The notes below the pieces were generated by a model, which saw nothing but the letters and a program-made list of their open reading frames with translations, had not been told where the DNA came from and searched no databases. From assembly GCA_029262855.1 (NCBI GenBank), contig JAJCYP010000025.1:1-46600 (forward strand): a stretch of DNA of 46,600 nt, given 5' to 3'. The position numbers and the translations under genes were made by a program. This stretch comes from Bacteroidota bacterium (GTDB taxonomy: Bacteria; Bacteroidota; Rhodothermia; Rhodothermales; UBA10348). Shown here piece after piece: positions 2,579 to 33,540 of the stretch; the first letter of the stretch is position 1; each line of letters begins with the position of its first letter.

Positions 2579-2971
2579 ATGCGAGGACAGATACCACCGC
2601 CCCGGCGCGATCATCACTCGGCTCCCCTCGCAGATGCAGGATTCCTCGGGATAGACAGCCCGGTCCTGTGGCCGGTAGCCCCCTCGGGCGATGGGCAGGG
2701 CAAACGGACTGACCTCTACGGCGACTCAGCCGGCTCTCTCCCCATCATGACCCCCAGCCTCTCGGGCTTCCAGATGCCCACCCATTCGGGCGATGGGCAC
2801 GGCCAGTCTCTGCCGTTCATGCAGCCCTCCCTGGCTCAGCCCCGCGTGGTCTCAACGCCCAAGGGCGAAGTGATGAAGCTCGTGATGCTCGTGGTGTTCT
2901 TCCTCCTCTGGATCTCCACTGCCAGCACGCTGCTGTTCTTGTACATGGATCGGTACCTGTTTCCAGGGTGA
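2579..2971 (+). CDS. Unrecognised small protein with C-terminal membrane segment (copy A)
   Basis: 130 residues; I do not recognise the family. It begins MRGQIPPPRR, then has GIDSPVLWPVAPSGDGQGKR and a second SGDGHG motif about 35 residues later. It ends in a strongly hydrophobic segment (about residues 100-121) and a short tail MDRYLFPG. A homologue of nearly the same length lies at 6411-6812. Over the last 32 codons the two genes differ at 14 synonymous but only 2 amino-acid-changing codons, which shows that the frame is translated and under purifying selection. The start at 2579 is set by the shared MRGQ-PPPRR N-terminus, although the frame is open further upstream. It is divergent from pglF copy 1 and next to SLBB gene remnants, so a role in polysaccharide assembly at the inner membrane is plausible but unproven. 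The bulk of the protein would face one side of the membrane like a tail-anchored protein. Confidence 0.75.
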   Translation: MRGQIPPPRRDHHSAPLADAGFLGIDSPVLWPVAPSGDGQGKRTDLYGDSAGSLPIMTPSLSGFQMPTHSGDGHGQSLPFMQPSLAQPRVVSTPKGEVMKLVMLVVFFLLWISTASTLLFLYMDRYLFPG

Positions 2972-2995
2972 ACCCATTCCGGGCCAGCTGTTTGG

Positions 2996-3217
2996 CTAGC
3001 GGCCCGTGAGGCGCTCTACGGCGAGCGCAACCGAGGCGAACGCGACGACGACGCTGAACATGTCGCGCCAGCTCAGACCTTGCTTTATTACTGCTTGGAC
3101 CTCCAGGACGTCTCCCGCCATGACTTGTATGTCGCGGCCCGAGACGTTCTCCGAAGGATGGGCCGCTTGCTACGGAGAGGGGTTCGGAGAGTTTGGTGCC
3201 CACCGGGACCTCGTAGC
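2996..3217 (-). pseudogene. Relic of the small SLBB protein (C-terminal part, frameshifted)
   Basis: Directly after the stop codon of the intact SLBB gene (3218), the minus strand encodes YEVPVGTKLSE and SGPSFGER, homologous to the intact protein. The frame then breaks and resumes as SGRDIQVMAGDVLEVQAV, KQGLSWRDMFSVV and ASVALAVERLTGR before a stop at 2996-2998. It lacks the signal peptide, the N-terminus and about 25 internal residues. It looks like a tandem duplicate that suffered an internal deletion. Confidence 0.75.
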
Positions 3218-3712
3218 TTACTTCCCGGTGATGCGCTCGACGGCCAAGGCCACTGAGGCGAAGGCGGTAATTACCGAAAACAAGTCCCGCCACGATAGAC
3301 CCTGCTTAACCACGGCCTCGACTCCGAGGACATCTCCGTTCATCACCTGTATGTCTCGGCCCGTGGCGTTAACGCCGTTCTTGGCCTTCTGCTCGTAGAT
3401 GACGCTGCGGCCCACGCCTGAGTCTCGGAAGAGCTTGATCGTCACCGTTCGTTTTGATCGCCGGGTTCGTTCACCCACGGTCGGGCCTCCGGCGATGGAG
3501 AGTAGTTCCGAGAGTTGCGTGCCGATGGGGACTTCGTAGAGCCCGGGGTAACGGACTGCGCCCCAGACGCTGACGTGCATCGTGACGTCGCCTTCTTCGG
3601 CGTAGTTGAAGTAGGCCGCCGTGTTGCGGCGGGAGCGTTCGAAATCGCTGAGTTGGGCGAGGGCGGGGGTGGCGACGAAGAAGAGGAGGGCAGCGATGAG
3701 GGCTGTGCGCAT
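3218..3712 (-). CDS. Small secreted single-SLBB-domain protein
   Basis: 164 residues from the ATG at 3712. That start is preferred over an upstream in-frame one because it begins a clear signal peptide (MRTALIAALLFFVATPALAQ). The mature part has the SLBB signature VWGAVRYPGLYEVPIGT then IAGGPTVGER, followed by GRDIQVMNGD and a hydrophobic C-terminal helix (FSVITAFASVALAVE). SLBB domains occur in Wza-type outer-membrane export proteins. This one lacks the preceding poly-export domain and is much shorter than the 920-aa protein at 39.3 kb, but it ends in a similar hydrophobic helix. It is likely periplasmic or membrane-anchored and accessory to polysaccharide export (inference). It lies 115 bases downstream of pglF copy 2 on the same strand, probably co-transcribed. 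Two decayed copies are nearby. Confidence 0.8.
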   Translation of the reverse strand: MRTALIAALLFFVATPALAQLSDFERSRRNTAAYFNYAEEGDVTMHVSVWGAVRYPGLYEVPIGTQLSELLSIAGGPTVGERTRRSKRTVTIKLFRDSGVGRSVIYEQKAKNGVNATGRDIQVMNGDVLGVEAVVKQGLSWRDLFSVITAFASVALAVERITGK

Positions 3713-3827
3713 GGGTCCGAGAGCGGGGTATATGGTCGTCTCGGAGGTATCGGCTGGGATTGGTGGGAATGAAGTTGCAGATCCGCGTGACGGCGGTGTC
3801 CACTCAACGGGCACTCGGCCGTTTAGA

Positions 3828-5810
3828 TCACGAGGCCCAGGCTAATCGGCGTCGTCTCCGCTGGCCAGAATCCAGAATCGGCGCTGAGTCCATCCCGACC
3901 GTTCTAAACGTCGGCACCAAGCTCGAAAGTCGCCCGAACAGTTCCGACGTCTTGCCCTCCTGAGCTGCAGCAATGAGCGCGTCGACGTGTTCGTCGAACA
4001 TGAATGCCATGTCCGCCGCGCCAGCCCCGTCCCCGCCTGCTGACACAACGGCGTCATGCGCCGTGTTGCAGACAAAGATGCTCCGGTGCTCGGTGCGGAC
4101 GTACTCCTCTCCGTCCATGAAGAGCTCCTCGAACATCTTTTCACCCGGCCGAAGGCCGCTGTAGACGATGTCGATATCGTCGCCCTCCTTGAGGCCGCTC
4201 AGTCGGATAACGTCTTTGGCGAGGTCGGAAATCTTAACCGGCTCACCCATGTCGAGGACAAATACTTCGCCCCCTTTGCCGAGTGTTGATGCCTCCAGCA
4301 CCAAAGCGACAGCTTCGGGGATGGTCATGAAATAGCGCATCATGTCCGGATGCGTCACCGTGATGGGGCCTCCGGTAGTAAGCTGCGAGCGGAAGGTCTG
4401 CAACACACTTCCCCTCGATCCCAGCACATTGCCAAACCGGACAGCCATGAACGGACGACCCGTCTCCTCCGCCGTCTTATACACAAGCATCTCCGCGATG
4501 CGCTTTGTAGACCCCATCACATTTCCGGGGTTCACCGCCTTGTCAGTCGAGATCATCACGAAGGCCGCGACGTCGAACTCAACCGAGGCCGAAAGCAGAT
4601 TCCTCGTCCCAAGAACATTGTTCGTGATGGCCTCCTCAGGGTTCGCCTCCATGAGCGGCACGTGCTTGTGCGCCGCCGCGTGGAAAACCACTTCCGGCCG
4701 ATGCTCCCGGAACACGCGGCCTAGCCGTGCTCGGTCCCGAACGTCCGCTATGACAGATCGGCAAATAGGGGCGTCTGGCCCGGCTCCCGAAATTTCCTGC
4801 TCAATACCGAAGATTGAGTTCTCGCCGTGGCCTAGCAAGATGACTTCGGCCGGCATAGACCGATAAATCTGCCTAACGAGTTCGCTTCCAATCGAGCCAC
4901 CCGCTCCGGTGACCAGCACTCGTCGCCCTTTTAGCAGTGCCTCTACGCGTCCCGGATCGCTTTTGACGGGGGCACGCCGCAGAAGATCTTCGACCTGTAC
5001 GGGTCTCAATTGGCTGACGTGCGCCGAGCCGTCTAGAAGTTCGAAAATGCCCGGGACCACGATCACCTTGAGGCCAGCACTCGTGGCGACATCCGTGATT
5101 TGCCGAATCGTCTTCCCCGTGGCTGTCGGCATGGCGATGACGACCGATTCAGCCGAGTGGCTTCTGGCCACCTCCTTCAGATCTGCCGTCAGACCCTCGA
5201 CTTCGATACCGCGAATTCTCAACCCTCGCTTGTTGACCGAGTCGTCGACGAAGGCGACGGGAGCAAGGCCAAGACCAGGATTGGACTGCATTTCCCGCAC
5301 GATCATGACGCCAGCTTCTCCCGCACCGGCCACAATGACGCGCTTGGACCTGCTGGTCCTGTGTAGGCGTTCGAAGATTCGCTGAGCCAGACGGGCACCG
5401 AAACGCGGGGCTGACACGAGAGGAAGGGCAATCAGGGCCTCCAACAACGGGGTTGACCTCGGGAAGCCGGACTCGATCAGTCCCAGTGGCCGAAGGACCA
5501 ATTCAAACGCTGCCACGGTAAGCAGAAACGCAATCGTCGCTCCGAGACCGATCCGAGCCAACTCGTCGACGCTGGCGTATCGCCAAATACGGTGGTATAG
5601 TTTGAAACGGGCGAAAACCGCGAGTCGGATCGCGAGAATCGCGACGGACGCAACGGCGATCGACGACGCGAAATCAGCAACTGACACAAATGAGTCAGTC
5701 CTCGCCCAAACCGCGAGTGCAGTTGCGATCAGGGATACTCCGATATCCGCCAACAGGACGTGCCGATTGCGGACACCCAGAAACCAGCTAGCCAGTCGTT
5801 CTAGATTCAT
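3828..5810 (-). CDS. pglF: Membrane-bound UDP-GlcNAc 4,6-dehydratase, PglF/WbpM/CapD family (copy 2)
   Basis: 660 residues from ATG at 5810 (MNLERLASWFLG), aligned with copy 1. A TTG three codons upstream is the less likely start. It has the same architecture: four N-terminal hydrophobic segments, VAGAGEAG, TGAGGSIG, STDK and the MxxxK active site in NVMGSTKR, so catalysis should be intact. Protein identity with copy 1 is high throughout. At the DNA level most of the gene has many silent differences, except 4285-4394, which is almost identical to 722-831 (gene conversion, see findings). The C-terminus differs, ending in an Arg-rich tail. The two copies may be redundant or act on different UDP-sugars or strand locations; the sequence does not decide this. 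Confidence 0.88.
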   Translation of the reverse strand: MNLERLASWFLGVRNRHVLLADIGVSLIATALAVWARTDSFVSVADFASSIAVASVAILAIRLAVFARFKLYHRIWRYASVDELARIGLGATIAFLLTVAAFELVLRPLGLIESGFPRSTPLLEALIALPLVSAPRFGARLAQRIFERLHRTSRSKRVIVAGAGEAGVMIVREMQSNPGLGLAPVAFVDDSVNKRGLRIRGIEVEGLTADLKEVARSHSAESVVIAMPTATGKTIRQITDVATSAGLKVIVVPGIFELLDGSAHVSQLRPVQVEDLLRRAPVKSDPGRVEALLKGRRVLVTGAGGSIGSELVRQIYRSMPAEVILLGHGENSIFGIEQEISGAGPDAPICRSVIADVRDRARLGRVFREHRPEVVFHAAAHKHVPLMEANPEEAITNNVLGTRNLLSASVEFDVAAFVMISTDKAVNPGNVMGSTKRIAEMLVYKTAEETGRPFMAVRFGNVLGSRGSVLQTFRSQLTTGGPITVTHPDMMRYFMTIPEAVALVLEASTLGKGGEVFVLDMGEPVKISDLAKDVIRLSGLKEGDDIDIVYSGLRPGEKMFEELFMDGEEYVRTEHRSIFVCNTAHDAVVSAGGDGAGAADMAFMFDEHVDALIAAAQEGKTSELFGRLSSLVPTFRTVGMDSAPILDSGQRRRRRLAWAS

Positions 5811-5819
5811 TTTACCCAA

Positions 5820-5856
5820 AGGTCGCTCGAATACCTGAAATACACGGGAGCGACCT
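5820..5856. promoter_or_regulatory. Inverted repeat in the 5' region of pglF copy 2
   Basis: AGGTCGCTC at 5820-5828 is the exact reverse complement of GAGCGACCT at 5848-5856, with a 19-base loop. It starts 10 bases upstream of the pglF copy 2 start codon, so it would fall in the leader RNA or act as an operator. No equivalent is present before copy 1. Confidence 0.35.
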
Positions 5857-5964
5857 CATTGCCTATCAAAATTTCCAAAAGTTACGACAAAGGGAGTTGA
5901 ACGGCACATATTGAGCCGCTATGTCACAAAACGCGACGTTTTCTTATCCCGGGGGACAGGCCTG

Positions 5965-6247
5965 GCTGATTGATCGTGACGACACGCTTCGTGCGCCGTG
6001 CTCTCTCGCCGGTCGTGGGTCCACCCGCTATGGAGATGAGCTCAGACATTGGCGTGCCCACCGGGAGTTCGTACAGGCCCGGATATCAAACAGCGCCCCT
6101 AGACCGAGGCGTGTCTTGTCACGTCTCCTGGTCCGCGTAGCTAAAGTACGCAGCCGTATTCCGCCGAGAGCGCTCAAAGTCATCGTACTGAGCGAATGCC
6201 GGGGTGGTGGCGAAAAGTGCGAGGGCCAGAAAAAGGGATGCACACAT
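5965..6247 (-). pseudogene. Frameshifted, truncated copy of the small SLBB protein
   Basis: The reading starts at the ATG at 6247 with a signal peptide (MCASLFLALALFATTPAFAQ) and the same mature N-terminus as the intact gene (DDFERSRRNTAAYFSYA). It then hits TGA. Homology resumes in another frame as GLYELPVGTPMSELISIAGG and TTGERARRTKRVVTI before fading near 5965. The C-terminal half is missing. It lies between pglF copy 2 and the second small membrane-protein gene. Confidence 0.8.
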
Positions 6248-6345
6248 GGCTATGGCAGGAGGCTGGATTGGGTCCTTAGAGGAGGTATGGGCCGTCTTTT
6301 TTCACGGTGAAGGATTTCCCGGCTCAGACCTTCGCGAATTCTCTA

Positions 6346-6372
6346 CTTTGCCCCGTACTCAAGGGGTGTCAG
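6346..6372 (+). promoter_or_regulatory. Conserved upstream element of small membrane protein B
   Basis: CTTTGCCCCGTA followed by GTGTCAG, 65 bases before the ATG at 6411. It matches the element at 2514-2540 in sequence and spacing. The stretch 5857-6410 otherwise holds only the SLBB pseudogene and no other supportable gene. Confidence 0.4.
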
Positions 6373-6410
6373 CCGAAGTTTCCCGGCCCTAATCTCCCCG
6401 ATACAACGCG

Positions 6411-6812
6411 ATGCGAGGACAGTTACCGCCCCCCAGAAGAAATCAAAGCTCAGCGACCTTGGCTGAGAACTCTGGATTTTACGGGATAGACAGTCAGGTC
6501 TTATGGCCAGTAGCTCCTTCAGGAGACGGCCAGGGGAAACGCCTCGATGCGGCGGCCGAGAACGCCTCGTTGCCTGTGATGCAGCCGAATTTGGGTGGGG
6601 TGTCGATGCCACGGTTTAGTGGTGATGGCCACGGGAAGGGAATGCCTTTCGTTCAGCCAGCGATTGCGGTTACGGCGGAAGCTCGTACCGTGAGAACTCC
6701 CAAGGCGGAGTCAATGAAGCTTGCGATGTTAGTCGTGTTCTTTCTGTTGTGGATTAGCACGGCGAGCACGCTGCTGTTCTTGTATATGGATCGGTATTTG
6801 TTCGCGGGGTAG
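6411..6812 (+). CDS. Unrecognised small protein with C-terminal membrane segment (copy B)
   Basis: 133 residues, paralogue of the protein at 2579-2971. Shared features are the MRGQLPPPRR start, GIDSQVLWPVAPSGDGQGKR, a second SGDGHGKGMPF motif, and a C-terminal hydrophobic helix followed by YMDRYLFAG. The central linker differs in sequence and length, while both SGDG motifs and the membrane segment are kept. No signal peptide is present at the N-terminus. The membrane segment sits within the last 35 residues, so the N-terminal 100 residues would be soluble and tethered. It is associated with pglF copy 2 just as copy A is with copy 1. Function is unknown, and I know of no characterised family with this pattern. 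Confidence 0.75.
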   Translation: MRGQLPPPRRNQSSATLAENSGFYGIDSQVLWPVAPSGDGQGKRLDAAAENASLPVMQPNLGGVSMPRFSGDGHGKGMPFVQPAIAVTAEARTVRTPKAESMKLAMLVVFFLLWISTASTLLFLYMDRYLFAG

Positions 6813-7395: not shown

Positions 7396-7414
7396 TGCGT
7401 ATTCCGGTGGAACG

Positions 7415-7516
7415 CGGCCACCGATTCTGGCTGAAGCCGGCCACTGATTCTGGTCGAAGCCGGCCACCGATTCTGGTTGAAGCCGGCCACTGATTCTGGT
7501 CTGAAGCCGGCCGCCT
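7415..7516 (+). repeat. IS21 left-end multiple terminal repeats
   Basis: Four tandem units spaced about 23 bp, consensus GCCGGCCACYGATTCTGGT plus a short variable link. They are IS21 transposase (IstA) binding repeats by family knowledge. An inverted, slightly diverged copy of this end lies at 39101-39194. Confidence 0.8.
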
Positions 7517-7643
7517 GGCGGCCTTCTTCCAGATTGGGTGGCCGGATTGCGCCAGAATGTCTGGTCGGCACCTGAAGCGACGGGCAAATGTCCAGGCGGA
7601 CGTCGTTCCTCCTCTTCCATGACACAAACAGGAAGAGGTGCTG

Positions 7644-9188
7644 ATGCCCGCCCCCCGGATGCCCATGAAGAAGATCAGAGATGTACTGAGGCTCCACTTC
7701 GAGCTCAAGCTCAGTCGCCGTCAGATTGCCCGTAGCCTCTCGCTTTCCCGCGACACGGTCGCGGTGACCATTGCTCGCGCGGCGGCCTCGGGCCTTGCGT
7801 GGCCTCTACCCGACGGCGTGTCGGACCAAGATCTGGAGCGGCGCCTCTATCCGCCCAAGGAGGACGGGCCCGCCTCCGGGCCGCATCCGGAACCCGACTG
7901 GCTGCATCTGAAGAAAGAACTCGGGCGCACCGGCGTGACGCGGCGCCTCCTCTGGGAGGAATACCAAGCCGACCACGAAGGGGGCCTCTGCTACAGTCAG
8001 TTCTGCTACCGGTACCGCCAGTGGCTGCGCCATGTGGATCCGGCCATGCGGATGGACCACAAGGCCGGCGAGAAGCTCTTTGTCGACTATGCCGGAGATA
8101 CCATGAGCGTCATCGACCCGGAGACTGGCGAGATCCGCGAGGCGCAGCTGTTCGTGGCCGTACTTGGCACATCGAGTTACCTGTACGCCGAGGCCACTTG
8201 GACACAGCAGCTCCAAGACTGGGTGATGGCGCATGTCCGGGCGCTGGACTTCCTGGGAGGAGTCCCCAAGCTGATCGTGCCCGACAACACCCGCACGGCC
8301 GTCAAGCACTCGTGCTACTATGAACCGTCCCTAAACCGGACCTACGCGGACCTGGCCGCCCATTACGGGACGGCCATCCTGCCCACCCGCGTCCGCAAGC
8401 CCAAAGACAAGGCGAAGGTGGAGGCGGGTGTCCTCCATGTGGAGCGCCGCATTCTGGCCAAACTCCGCAACCGGCAGTTCTTCTCGCTCGCCCAATTGAA
8501 TGAGGCCATCGACGATGAAGTGGACGTCATCAATGGTGCCCCCTTCCAGAAGCTGGAGGGCTCCCGGCTGAGCCAGTTCGAAGCGCTCGACAAACCAGCG
8601 CTGCTGCCGCTGCCGGCGCACCGCTACACCTACGCGACGTGGCACGAGTGCCGGGCTGGCGTCAACTACCATCTCGAGTTGGAGAAGCACGGCTACTCGG
8701 TACCCTACCAGTTGATACGCCGCAAGCTCAACGTCCGGGTCACCGCATCGGTCGTCGAAGTCTTCTACCGAGGGGAGCGTGTAGCCAGCCACGCTCGAAG
8801 CTCTCGGGCCTACGGATACACCACGGTCCGTGAACACATGCCCTCCAGCCACCGCCGTTATGCCGAGTGGACACCGGAGCGCATTACCGGATGGGCGGCC
8901 AAGGTCGGCGAAGCAACGGCCGAGGCCTGTGCCCACATCATGCGGTCCAGGCCGCACCCGGAGCACGGCTTCCGCGCCTGCCTTGGCATCATGCGCCTGG
9001 CCAAACGCTACGGCGATGACCGCACCGAGGCGGCCTGCCAAAGGGCCCTCGCCGCAGGGGCCGTCCGATACAAATCCATTGAGTCCATCCTGGCGCGCGG
9101 ACTCGATAAACAGCCGCTCTTGCCGCTGGAGCCACCAGAGGCGATCCCGAACCACGAACACATCCGCGGACCCGAATACTACAACTAA
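7644..9188 (+). CDS. istA: IS21-family transposase IstA
   Basis: 514 residues from ATG at 7644, preceded at a good distance by AGGAAGAG (7630-7637). A GTG at 7638 is too close to that site. The N-terminal helix-turn-helix contains LSRRQIARSLSLSRDTV. The catalytic DDE residues are visible: Asp about 148 in FVDYAGD, Asp about 214 in VPDNTRTAV and Glu about 260 in KAKVEAGV. The protein cuts and joins the IS ends and acts with IstB. Length is normal for the family. It is followed after 13 bases by istB. Confidence 0.93.
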   Translation: MPAPRMPMKKIRDVLRLHFELKLSRRQIARSLSLSRDTVAVTIARAAASGLAWPLPDGVSDQDLERRLYPPKEDGPASGPHPEPDWLHLKKELGRTGVTRRLLWEEYQADHEGGLCYSQFCYRYRQWLRHVDPAMRMDHKAGEKLFVDYAGDTMSVIDPETGEIREAQLFVAVLGTSSYLYAEATWTQQLQDWVMAHVRALDFLGGVPKLIVPDNTRTAVKHSCYYEPSLNRTYADLAAHYGTAILPTRVRKPKDKAKVEAGVLHVERRILAKLRNRQFFSLAQLNEAIDDEVDVINGAPFQKLEGSRLSQFEALDKPALLPLPAHRYTYATWHECRAGVNYHLELEKHGYSVPYQLIRRKLNVRVTASVVEVFYRGERVASHARSSRAYGYTTVREHMPSSHRRYAEWTPERITGWAAKVGEATAEACAHIMRSRPHPEHGFRACLGIMRLAKRYGDDRTEAACQRALAAGAVRYKSIESILARGLDKQPLLPLEPPEAIPNHEHIRGPEYYN

Positions 9189-9201
9189 TCCCACCTCCGA
9201 C

Positions 9202-9960
9202 ATGCTCACACACCCCACGCTCGAACAATTACGCCGCCTCCGGCTCAACGGCATGGCAGACGCCTATGCCCAACAAGTCGAACAGGCGGACGCGGAGGCG
9301 CTCTCCTTCGACGAACGCCTCGGCCTACTCGTTGACCGGGAACGAAGCGACCGCGAGTCACGACGCCTGTCCAATCGGCTCCGGCGTGCCCGCCTGAAGC
9401 ACCAAGCCTCCATGGAGGATCTGGACTACTCAGCTGCCCGTGGTCTGGACAAGACGGTTATCCGCGGACTGGCCCGGTGCGCCTACATCCGGCACCATGA
9501 GAATGTGCTTATTGTCGGCGCCACAGGCACCGGCAAGACCTACTTGGCCTGCGCACTGGCTCACAGAGCGTGCCTGGAAGGCTTCTCGGCACAGTACGAA
9601 CGCCTCTCTAGACTGCTCGAATCAATCCGGCTCGCACGGGCCGACGGGAGCTATCCCAAGCTCGTGGCCGCCCTGGCGAAGACGGATGTCCTGGTGCTCG
9701 ATGATTGGGGGCTCGCCCCGATCCCACCCCAGAGCCGCAATGACCTGCTCGAGATCCTGGATGACCGGCATGGGTCCCGCTCGACCATCGTGACCAGCCA
9801 ACTCCCGGTTGCTGAGTGGCACGCCTCGGTCGGAGATGCCACCTTGGCAGACGCCATCCTCGATCGCCTAGTTCACAATGGCCACCGCGTCACGCTCAAG
9901 GGCGATTCCATGCGAAAGAAGCGGACTCCCGTACCGGAAGCCGGCCACCCCGTCACCTAA
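9202..9960 (+). CDS. istB: IS21-family helper ATPase IstB
   Basis: 252 residues from ATG at 9202; the frame extends upstream inside istA but homology starts at MLTHPTLEQLRRLRLNGMA. Walker A is GATGTGKTYLA (near residue 108) and Walker B is VLVLDDWGLAP (near 168). This AAA+ protein stimulates IstA transposition and target selection. The C-terminus carries ADAILDRLVHNGHRVTLKGDSMR, homologous to the relic at 7043-7217. Intact. Confidence 0.93.
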   Translation: MLTHPTLEQLRRLRLNGMADAYAQQVEQADAEALSFDERLGLLVDRERSDRESRRLSNRLRRARLKHQASMEDLDYSAARGLDKTVIRGLARCAYIRHHENVLIVGATGTGKTYLACALAHRACLEGFSAQYERLSRLLESIRLARADGSYPKLVAALAKTDVLVLDDWGLAPIPPQSRNDLLEILDDRHGSRSTIVTSQLPVAEWHASVGDATLADAILDRLVHNGHRVTLKGDSMRKKRTPVPEAGHPVT

Positions 9961-32740: not shown

Positions 32741-33049
32741 ATGCCCCGATCTTGTCCCCCTTACCCGCCCGACTCCCGCCAGCAGATTGTTGAGCTGCAC
32801 CGTTCAGGCCGCTCGGTCGCGGAGCTGGTTCGAGAGTTCGAGCCTTCCCAGGATACGATCCGCAGTTGGATCAGACAGGGCGACGCCGATGCCGGTCGCA
32901 GACCGGATGTAGCGACCTCTTTCGAGAAAAAAGTACTAGCTCAACTGCGTCCTGAGAACAGGCGGCTTCAGAAAGAACCAGACATTTTGGCAAAAGTCGC
33001 GGCCTGGTTCGCTCAGGAGACCGGCTCGATTCCACGTTTGAGTTCGTGA
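32741..33049 (+). CDS. IS3-family OrfA
   Basis: 102 residues. The N-terminal helix-turn-helix (SRQQIVELHRSGRSVAELVREF, then IRSWIRQ) and C-terminal leucine-zipper-like part (LRPENRRLQKEPDILAKVAAWFA) are typical of IS3 OrfA. The orfB frame begins at its end in another frame, as in frameshift-expressed IS3 elements. OrfB is broken, so the element is dead. The likely left end is in the TGCCCCGATTTGGTGG region near 32693. Confidence 0.8.
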   Translation: MPRSCPPYPPDSRQQIVELHRSGRSVAELVREFEPSQDTIRSWIRQGDADAGRRPDVATSFEKKVLAQLRPENRRLQKEPDILAKVAAWFAQETGSIPRLSS

Positions 33050-33540
33050 GCGCTTACCGGGCCGCATATCCTGTCGCCACCATGTGCCGGGTTCTGGAGG
33101 TCTCCTCCAGCGGCTATTATGCTTGGGTCAAGCCTCCGCCGTCTGATTACGCGGTACGTGACAGGGTATTGAAGGAGATGGTGCGCCGAATCCACACGAA
33201 CTCGCACGAGACGTGCGGTGCCTCGCCTATCCACGCTGACCTGTGTGAGGCCGGTATTAACGCGTCGCGCAAACGGGTCGCCCGCCTAATGCGAGAGGCT
33301 GGATCGCGCGGTGTCAGCCGACGCAAGGGGTTCACCACGACCCGCCGAAGCCGGAACAGGTGTCTGCTCCTGATCTGGTCAATCGGGATTTTACCGCGAC
33401 AAGGCCGAACCAGCCTGGGTTGCAGACGACCACAATCATCACCGACCCCACAAAGCCCTCGGATTCCAAAGGCCGGCGGGCTTTCTACAATCCCAACCTG
33501 TCGCCCCTTAAGCGGACCGCAATAGGAGCGAGCCGACACC
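33046..33540 (+). pseudogene. Truncated IS3-family orfB
   Basis: It starts SAYRAAYPVATMCRVLEVSSSGYYAWVK in orfB style and continues through the HTH_21 region (CGASPIHADLCEAGINASRKRVARLMREAG). The frame is lost near 33350, where APDLVNRDFTATRPNQ is readable in another frame. The catalytic DDE core is absent because of an internal deletion, and only a distorted C-terminal end remains before the next gene at 33557. Confidence 0.8.

Follow-up and report, generated by a model that had tools for sequence, protein, structure and literature searches.

The window analysed here is a 46,600-nucleotide stretch of Bacteroidota bacterium (order Rhodothermales; assembly GCA_029262855.1, contig JAJCYP010000025.1, positions 1 to 46,600), that is, contig 25 of a 4.7-Mb genome. 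It carries two copies of a gene for a small membrane protein, here called X: X1 (2579–2971, + strand; 130 residues) and X2 (6411–6812, + strand; 133 residues), both open reading frames (ORFs) whose products have SGDG repeats and a C-terminal anchor, and which are 71% identical. A search of the genome found X at these two places only. The conserved C-terminal membrane helix spans codons 94–127 of X1 (2858–2959, +; from the alignment to X2) and codons 97–130 of X2 (6699–6800, +; from AlphaFold2). A promoter-like element of 25 bp lies 78 bases before the ATG of each copy: CACCAATCCTGCCCTTTGCCCCGTA at 2501–2525 (+, E 0.19 in the genome) for X1, and CGCGAATTCTCTACTTTGCCCCGTA at 6333–6357 (+, E 0.0015, the best match in the genome) for X2. 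Below we describe the protein family, the element and the genes that follow it elsewhere, and propose, tentatively, that X is a membrane-bound scaffold or adaptor produced along with surface proteins.

A sequence-only reading of this stretch had described two paralogues with an MRGQ-PPPRR start, two SGDGxG motifs and a C-terminal helix, and all of these features are present, the motifs being SGDGQG and SGDGHG in each copy. In all 18 aligned members of the family the tail is near-invariant and reads KL..V..F..W...ASTLLFLYMD.YLF; the residues that never vary are the initiator Met, a Gly in one SGDG motif and, within the tail, K, L, V, F, W, ASTLLFLYMD, Y, L and F. The helix ends MD(R/Q)YLF, the tail beyond it is six or seven residues long, and the last residue varies (P, G, R). 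The N-terminal arm varies in length and sequence and keeps its SGDGxG motifs, which often stand behind an aromatic residue (PNYSGDGHGK, PLWSGDGR) and number one to five if all (G)DG-type motifs are counted, most of them SGDGxG. At least two [ST]GDG motifs occur in 17 of 708 ORFs, 16 of which are X, in a count that covers the X-centred loci and is not a proteome census. As judged by an AlphaFold2 model of X2 made with 15 relatives, the helix (97–130) is the sole confidently predicted element, the remainder having pLDDT values of about 50–60 (mean pLDDT of the X2 model, 61.6).

X has the layout of a tail-anchored protein: a single C-terminal helix, a short tail and no signal peptide. Because no signal-like stretch is seen at the start of the 18 aligned members (by reading), and because the stretch of 15 residues that leads into the helix has a net charge of at least 0 in 16 of 16 members, X is presumably a tail-anchored membrane protein with its arm in the cytoplasm. 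Bitopic and tail-anchored bacterial proteins with disordered cytoplasmic arms are known, and have this same combination of disordered arm and one C-terminal helix; we found no sequence relation between X and any named family. PEP-CTERM and other C-terminal sorting tails also combine a C-terminal hydrophobic helix with occasional polysaccharide-gene neighbours, but X differs in having neither a signal peptide-like start nor a terminal basic cluster, and it has no NCBIfam match; it was accordingly rejected as a PEP-CTERM/exosortase substrate (four members against NCBIfam, alignment by reading). Two further assignments were discarded: (i) cargo of type A of the type IX secretion system (T9SS), since X, unlike its convergent neighbour at locus L051, has no match to Por_Secre_tail (TIGR04183/PF18962), and (ii) anti-sigma factor, since there is no HMM match, the arm is predicted to be disordered, and no sigma gene was noted beside X in the ORF lists (by reading).

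Both copies are intact. They are under selection, as the sequence-only reading had concluded, and this selection is purifying. The earlier count of 14 silent and two replacement differences in the last 32 codons is exact (the other 16 codons are identical), and when 20 base changes were placed at random the mean number of replacement codons was 13.2 and the minimum 8 in 5000 trials. Upstream of the tail, over 93 aligned codons, the bootstrap range of pN/pS is 0.25–0.48, and comparison of the window copies with that of genome G001, from the same genus, gave 0.38–0.69 and 0.34–0.67; synonymous sites are saturated in these comparisons, so only the direction of the ratios is safe.

X is present in 19 of the 27 genomes of the window's own Rhodothermales family, in 18 of them with the tail; in the remaining one (G023) it was recognised via its N-terminal part, ahead of a contig end. 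With the X profile, the 114 genomes of the order gave no match beyond this family at E ≤ 1e-3. A profile of the tail alone returned strong matches (E ≤ 1e-20) in 18 of 244 class genomes and 9 of 395 phylum genomes, all of which belong to the window's own family, and weak matches in 11 class genomes (best E 0.0021) and 21 phylum genomes (best E 0.0011). Four of the weak matches were fetched, the best phylum match (G496) not being among them: G164 and G177 hold an ATP-synthase b-like protein (sequence reading, no search), G161 has a transporter-like ORF there, and at G120 nothing is found at the site. A single-protein match outside the family (G055, E 0.0028) covers a low-complexity part and was rejected as a relative. 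A search with one peptide pattern, which may miss more distant forms, returned 15 loci from metagenome-assembled Rhodothermales or Bacteroidota (two labelled only “bacterium”). X was not found in viral contigs, nor in plasmids (X2 as the only query). The earlier statement that no named family fits agrees with our searches: Pfam and NCBIfam each gave no family for four members at E ≤ 10, PHROGs gave none for X2 and four weak single matches over 16 members (best E 0.073), and the best PDB match had an E of 0.88. Likewise, we found no description of the family or its peptide strings in the open-access literature, and no open-access paper that combines Rhodothermales, exopolysaccharide and a gene cluster. 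X thus appears to be a lineage-restricted family without a name, confined, as far as the profiles indicate, to one Rhodothermales family with no convincing member found outside; its general kind, tail-anchored with a disordered arm, is already known, and the promoter-like element is undescribed.

The DNA upstream of X cannot be aligned between genera save for one block. This block is the element, C[GA]C[ACG]AA[TA]-N14-CGT[TA], which precedes 20 of 20 X genes. Each of the 18 upstream regions of 300 bases that were scanned holds a single copy (a descriptive count), and two X genes outside those 18 also carry a site (G006, score 35.1, and G023). A T-rich stretch often lies ahead of it, as judged by eye. 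Considered as sequence, the element has the layout of a promoter for a sigma factor of the extracytoplasmic function (ECF) type, with a −35-like box and a CGT-containing −10-like box at fixed spacing. A sequence-only model (R1), for which 15 of the 18 X sites served as the training set, found 73 sites across the 27 genomes at E ≤ 10, namely 20 at X and 53 elsewhere; among the latter, 12 have E ≤ 0.1 and 30 have E < 0.4. The X site is the top-scoring one in 16 of the 19 genomes with X, and no further convincing site was seen in the window beyond those of X1 and X2. A reversed control (R2), built from the same 15 pieces written backwards (information content 0.633 versus 0.632 bits per position), gave five sites in all across the 27 genomes, with a best E of 0.44. 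R2 is a fair but imperfect null, as it yields fewer first-look candidates in most genomes and its dinucleotides are altered.

Fifty of the 53 sites away from X were fetched (left out: G014:C54, G008:C7:20822 and G008:C135). In the 48 loci, 44 sites have a position weight matrix score above 16, and for 42 of these 44 an ORF starts within 350 bases. We grouped the downstream ORFs by single-linkage blastp (E ≤ 1e-5). The largest cluster has 17 entries at 16 distinct sites in 11 genomes, with 15 of the 16 sites in the R1 list; its proteins look secreted, with hydrophobic starts, and a GLYIYRL-type tail is common among those whose sequence is complete in the stretch. One of them (G000:C39) matches Por_Secre_tail above the Pfam cut-off.

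The smaller clusters have 4, 3, 3 and 2 members. Four membrane-anchored coiled-coil proteins (L148, L155, L162 and L167) have the element 264–345 bases upstream. A second group consists of three single-helix proteins with the look of anti-sigma factors (L187:6454–7098, L186:4561–5184 and L188:5533–6195, all on the − strand; sequence MSRPLEQSEEYILAAF...), which have the element 36–83 bases upstream and an (S/T)GDG(A/S)S motif past the helical part. In one of the three proteins the helix downstream is missing; the family gave no meaningful Pfam or NCBIfam match, and no sigma gene is found among the adjoining ORFs. In three genomes, proteins of 113 residues follow the same element, at L204:7194–7532 (−), L170 and L173, with an LPD29 match just below the cut-off (26.1 bits versus 27). 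The remaining cluster comprises two proteins of 76–77 residues.

The closest likeness that we found for the element is the SM6 (CGT-box) promoter class of Flavobacterium psychrophilum, which has been linked to T9SS genes and attributed to a sigma factor of the ECF type (PMC9723704). Both have a CGT box at the −10-like place and downstream genes linked to surface secretion. The SM6 set includes T9SS machinery genes, Band-7 proteins and a sigma/anti-sigma pair, and its start sites are mapped (PMC9723704), whereas the X element is a sequence-level finding with a different −35-like box, and is followed mostly by secreted cargo and proteins of no known kind. In Porphyromonas gingivalis, the PorXY-SigP system uses an ECF sigma factor to coordinate T9SS-related genes, and the motif suggested for SigP, C(T)AAA(G/C/T)A(T)A(C)T(A/G)A, differs from the X element (PMC4800418).

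We then turn to the genes around X. In the window, each X copy is accompanied by a gene for a PglF/WbpM-type dehydratase (copy 1, 289–2247, −, duplicated with X; copy 2, 3828–5819, −), and between them lies an intact gene for a small SLBB protein of 164 residues (3218–3712, −; protein 3221–3712; PF10531 above cut-off). Two remnants of SLBB genes are also present: C-terminal-half pieces in two frames at 2999–3215 (−), and the N-terminal 93 residues, with two in-frame TGA codons, at 5969–6247 (−). The earlier description of each X as paired with PglF and SLBB copies thus stands for PglF, both genes being intact, and only in part for SLBB, of which the window holds one intact copy and two remnants. 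In G001, a single X is divergent from a small SLBB gene, which is followed by PglF. Since the two window PglF proteins share 86% identity, against 73% with the PglF of G001, the X-SLBB-PglF unit was, as the sequences indicate, most likely duplicated after the split from G001.

Mobile elements were also noted by reading. Directly adjoining X2, at 7638–9960 (+), two ORFs resemble IstA and IstB of an IS21-type element, and short direct and inverted repeats are clustered ahead of them at 7400–7570. Two ORFs with the look of an IS3-type transposase lie at 32741–33525, within a polysaccharide cluster.

The arrangement in the window raises the possibility that a polysaccharide complex with PglF, with the small SLBB protein, or with both has X as its tether or regulatory subunit. 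Several observations point that way: X, SLBB and PglF are adjacent in both G000 and G001; after duplication of the unit in the window's lineage, X and PglF were both retained twice; small SLBB genes lie near X in three genera; and in G000, G001 and G010, X is near SLBB in a stretch from which aroC is absent. The sequence-only reading had named as support the recurrence of homologues next to pglF/wbpM or SLBB genes. For pglF/wbpM, the family does not show it. PglF-type genes (PF02719) occur in 9 of the 27 family genomes, eight of which have X, while 11 of the 19 genomes with X have no match at E ≤ 1e-20; only in G000 and G001, that is, in one genus, does such a gene lie within 3 kb of X (2 of 19). 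For the SLBB genes the recurrence is borne out in part. Of the 27 genomes, 11 have a small SLBB gene (E ≤ 1e-6), and 10 of these also have X. In five of the 10 the two genes are on one contig, at distances of 0.2 (G000), 0.2 (G001), 5.1 (G010), 7.4 (G015) and 10.4 kb (G011); in the other five the SLBB gene is on a different contig, which in G012 extends for more than 40 kb on either side of it, so that the gene is not close to X. X hence lacks the consistent linkage across genomes expected of a PglF/SLBB complex subunit, and we consider a role in such a complex unlikely. A role for X as a subunit of the sugar dehydratase itself, as had been suggested, is also unlikely, because PglF is near X only in G000 and G001 and the usual neighbour is aroC.

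Co-occurrence with polysaccharide genes in other genomes, which the sequence-only reading required, does exist and is more frequent than expected, though loose. Poly_export genes lie 18–19 kb from X in G003, G011 and G015, and 35–40 kb away in G000 and G001; in G008, which has no X, aroC is about 10–14 kb from such genes. Because Poly_export genes are found near X and also near aroC where X is missing, a polysaccharide region has long been close to this site, a loose link that provides no evidence for a PglF subunit.

In 15 of the 19 genomes with X, aroC precedes it, as the next gene in 14 and with one ORF between in G004; in G006 the position behind aroC is deduced from the element just past aroC at the contig end. 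X lies away from aroC in G000, G001 and G010. Upstream of aroC there is usually a gene for an HtrA-like protease (trypsin and PDZ domains above the Pfam cut-offs in L054, the others by eye). Reading of X-less Rhodothermales families also revealed an HtrA-like gene directly before aroC at L081, L083, L087, L088, L089 and L092. Since the pair occurs without X in outgroup loci and in G008, htrA-aroC is an old gene pair that predates X. The gene downstream of X is usually convergent and codes for a secreted protein, and the one at L051, the single X locus tested, is above the TIGR04183 cut-off and thus T9SS type A cargo. As a clue to the function of X this neighbour was dismissed, as it is present in G008 without X.

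The eight genomes that lack X do not all represent true losses, because several aroC sites are cut by contig ends or have no aroC match. X is truly missing at the aroC site of G008, where aroC overlaps the gene for the secreted protein; in G025 there is no X behind aroC before the contig ends; aroC itself is cut by the contig end in G007 and G018; G014 and G026 have no aroC match; and in G005 and G002 aroC has no X beside it.

The protease gene suggests another explanation, in which X is a client or sensor of an envelope-stress loop: its MD(R/Q)YLF tail would be read or cut by a membrane-anchored HtrA, and the CGT-box promoter would be the output. In the sigma-E pathway, DegS recognises YxF tails at the C-terminus, and clients of the HtrA/DegS type are membrane proteins with a fixed, exposed C-terminal tail and an HtrA gene nearby, much as in X. 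The tail is fixed in all aligned members, X carries an ECF-like element, and most loci of sufficient length have an HtrA-like gene ahead of aroC and X. However, htrA-aroC also occurs without X in G008 and, by eye, in outgroup loci; a PDZ-binding carboxyl end would be constant in its final residue, and that of X varies; and X has no recognisable anti-sigma domain. In these last two points it departs from the known clients. We therefore regard this explanation as quite improbable.

Based on these observations, our preferred reading, to which we assign a probability of roughly 0.38, is that X acts as a tail-anchored scaffold or adaptor whose gene is expressed from an ECF-type promoter along with those of surface proteins. 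It rests on the resemblance of the CGT-box element to the SM6 class tied to T9SS genes. As the promoter-like element is common to X and to genes for cell-surface proteins, X probably helps to build the cell surface. The protein would span the inner membrane once, with its disordered N-terminal arm in the cytoplasm, and its C-terminal helix would probably pack onto a conserved membrane partner. The SGDG repeats may offer several binding sites to one cytosolic partner, and the helix would bring X to a membrane complex for surface-protein secretion or surface-polysaccharide export, for which T9SS, polysaccharide export and HtrA are candidates. The X gene would be switched on together with those of secreted surface proteins via the ECF-type (CGT-box) promoter. 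What the analysis establishes is the family with its conservation, selection and lineage restriction, the common upstream element and the kinds of gene behind it; topology, the ECF nature of the promoter, multivalent binding and the partners are inferred from these.

Several points weigh against this scaffold reading. The pattern of the element was drawn from the same 18 upstream sequences, which makes the count of 18 of 18 descriptive, and in three of the 19 genomes with X (G010, G021 and G023) another site outscores that of X. The boxes, 14 bases apart, stand closer together than those of well-studied ECF promoters, and the regulon genes inspected have no ECF sigma gene beside them, a genome-wide search not having been made. 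A T9SS signal is demonstrated in just part of the large cluster, and the remaining element sites are singletons, several of them within ORFs or ahead of unrelated genes. Co-regulation is no proof that X acts in secretion; most species have surface proteins and no X gene; and aroC with the convergent secreted gene occurs in G008 without X.

One further alternative bears on the same evidence. X could belong, as a structural or accessory component, to some unrelated membrane complex (for respiration, division or light harvesting), in which case neighbourhood and promoter would be uninformative. The conserved part is indeed an intramembrane helix, and neither aroC nor the convergent secreted neighbour has an obvious link; against this, the element is common to X and secreted-protein genes and missing in the reversed control. 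We view such a role as possible, if doubtful. A more elaborate form of the scaffold reading makes X the membrane-bound hub of a so far undescribed, ECF-controlled surface-assembly system in one Rhodothermales family, in which the SGDG repeats would serve as a multivalent docking arm in the cytosol, the tail would be coupled to the membrane-anchored HtrA or a secretion motor, and the SGDG(A/S)S protein of anti-sigma look would belong to the same circuit; we offer it as speculation that is very unlikely to hold in full.

The analysis replaces a guess from one locus by a defined family with a profile and a lineage boundary. To our knowledge, little is known about regulation in Rhodothermales, and with the conserved promoter-like element the co-regulation of a set of surface genes in this order can be put to the test. 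For the protein itself, the combination of a disordered repeat arm with a near-invariant membrane helix suggests multivalent recruitment at the inner membrane.

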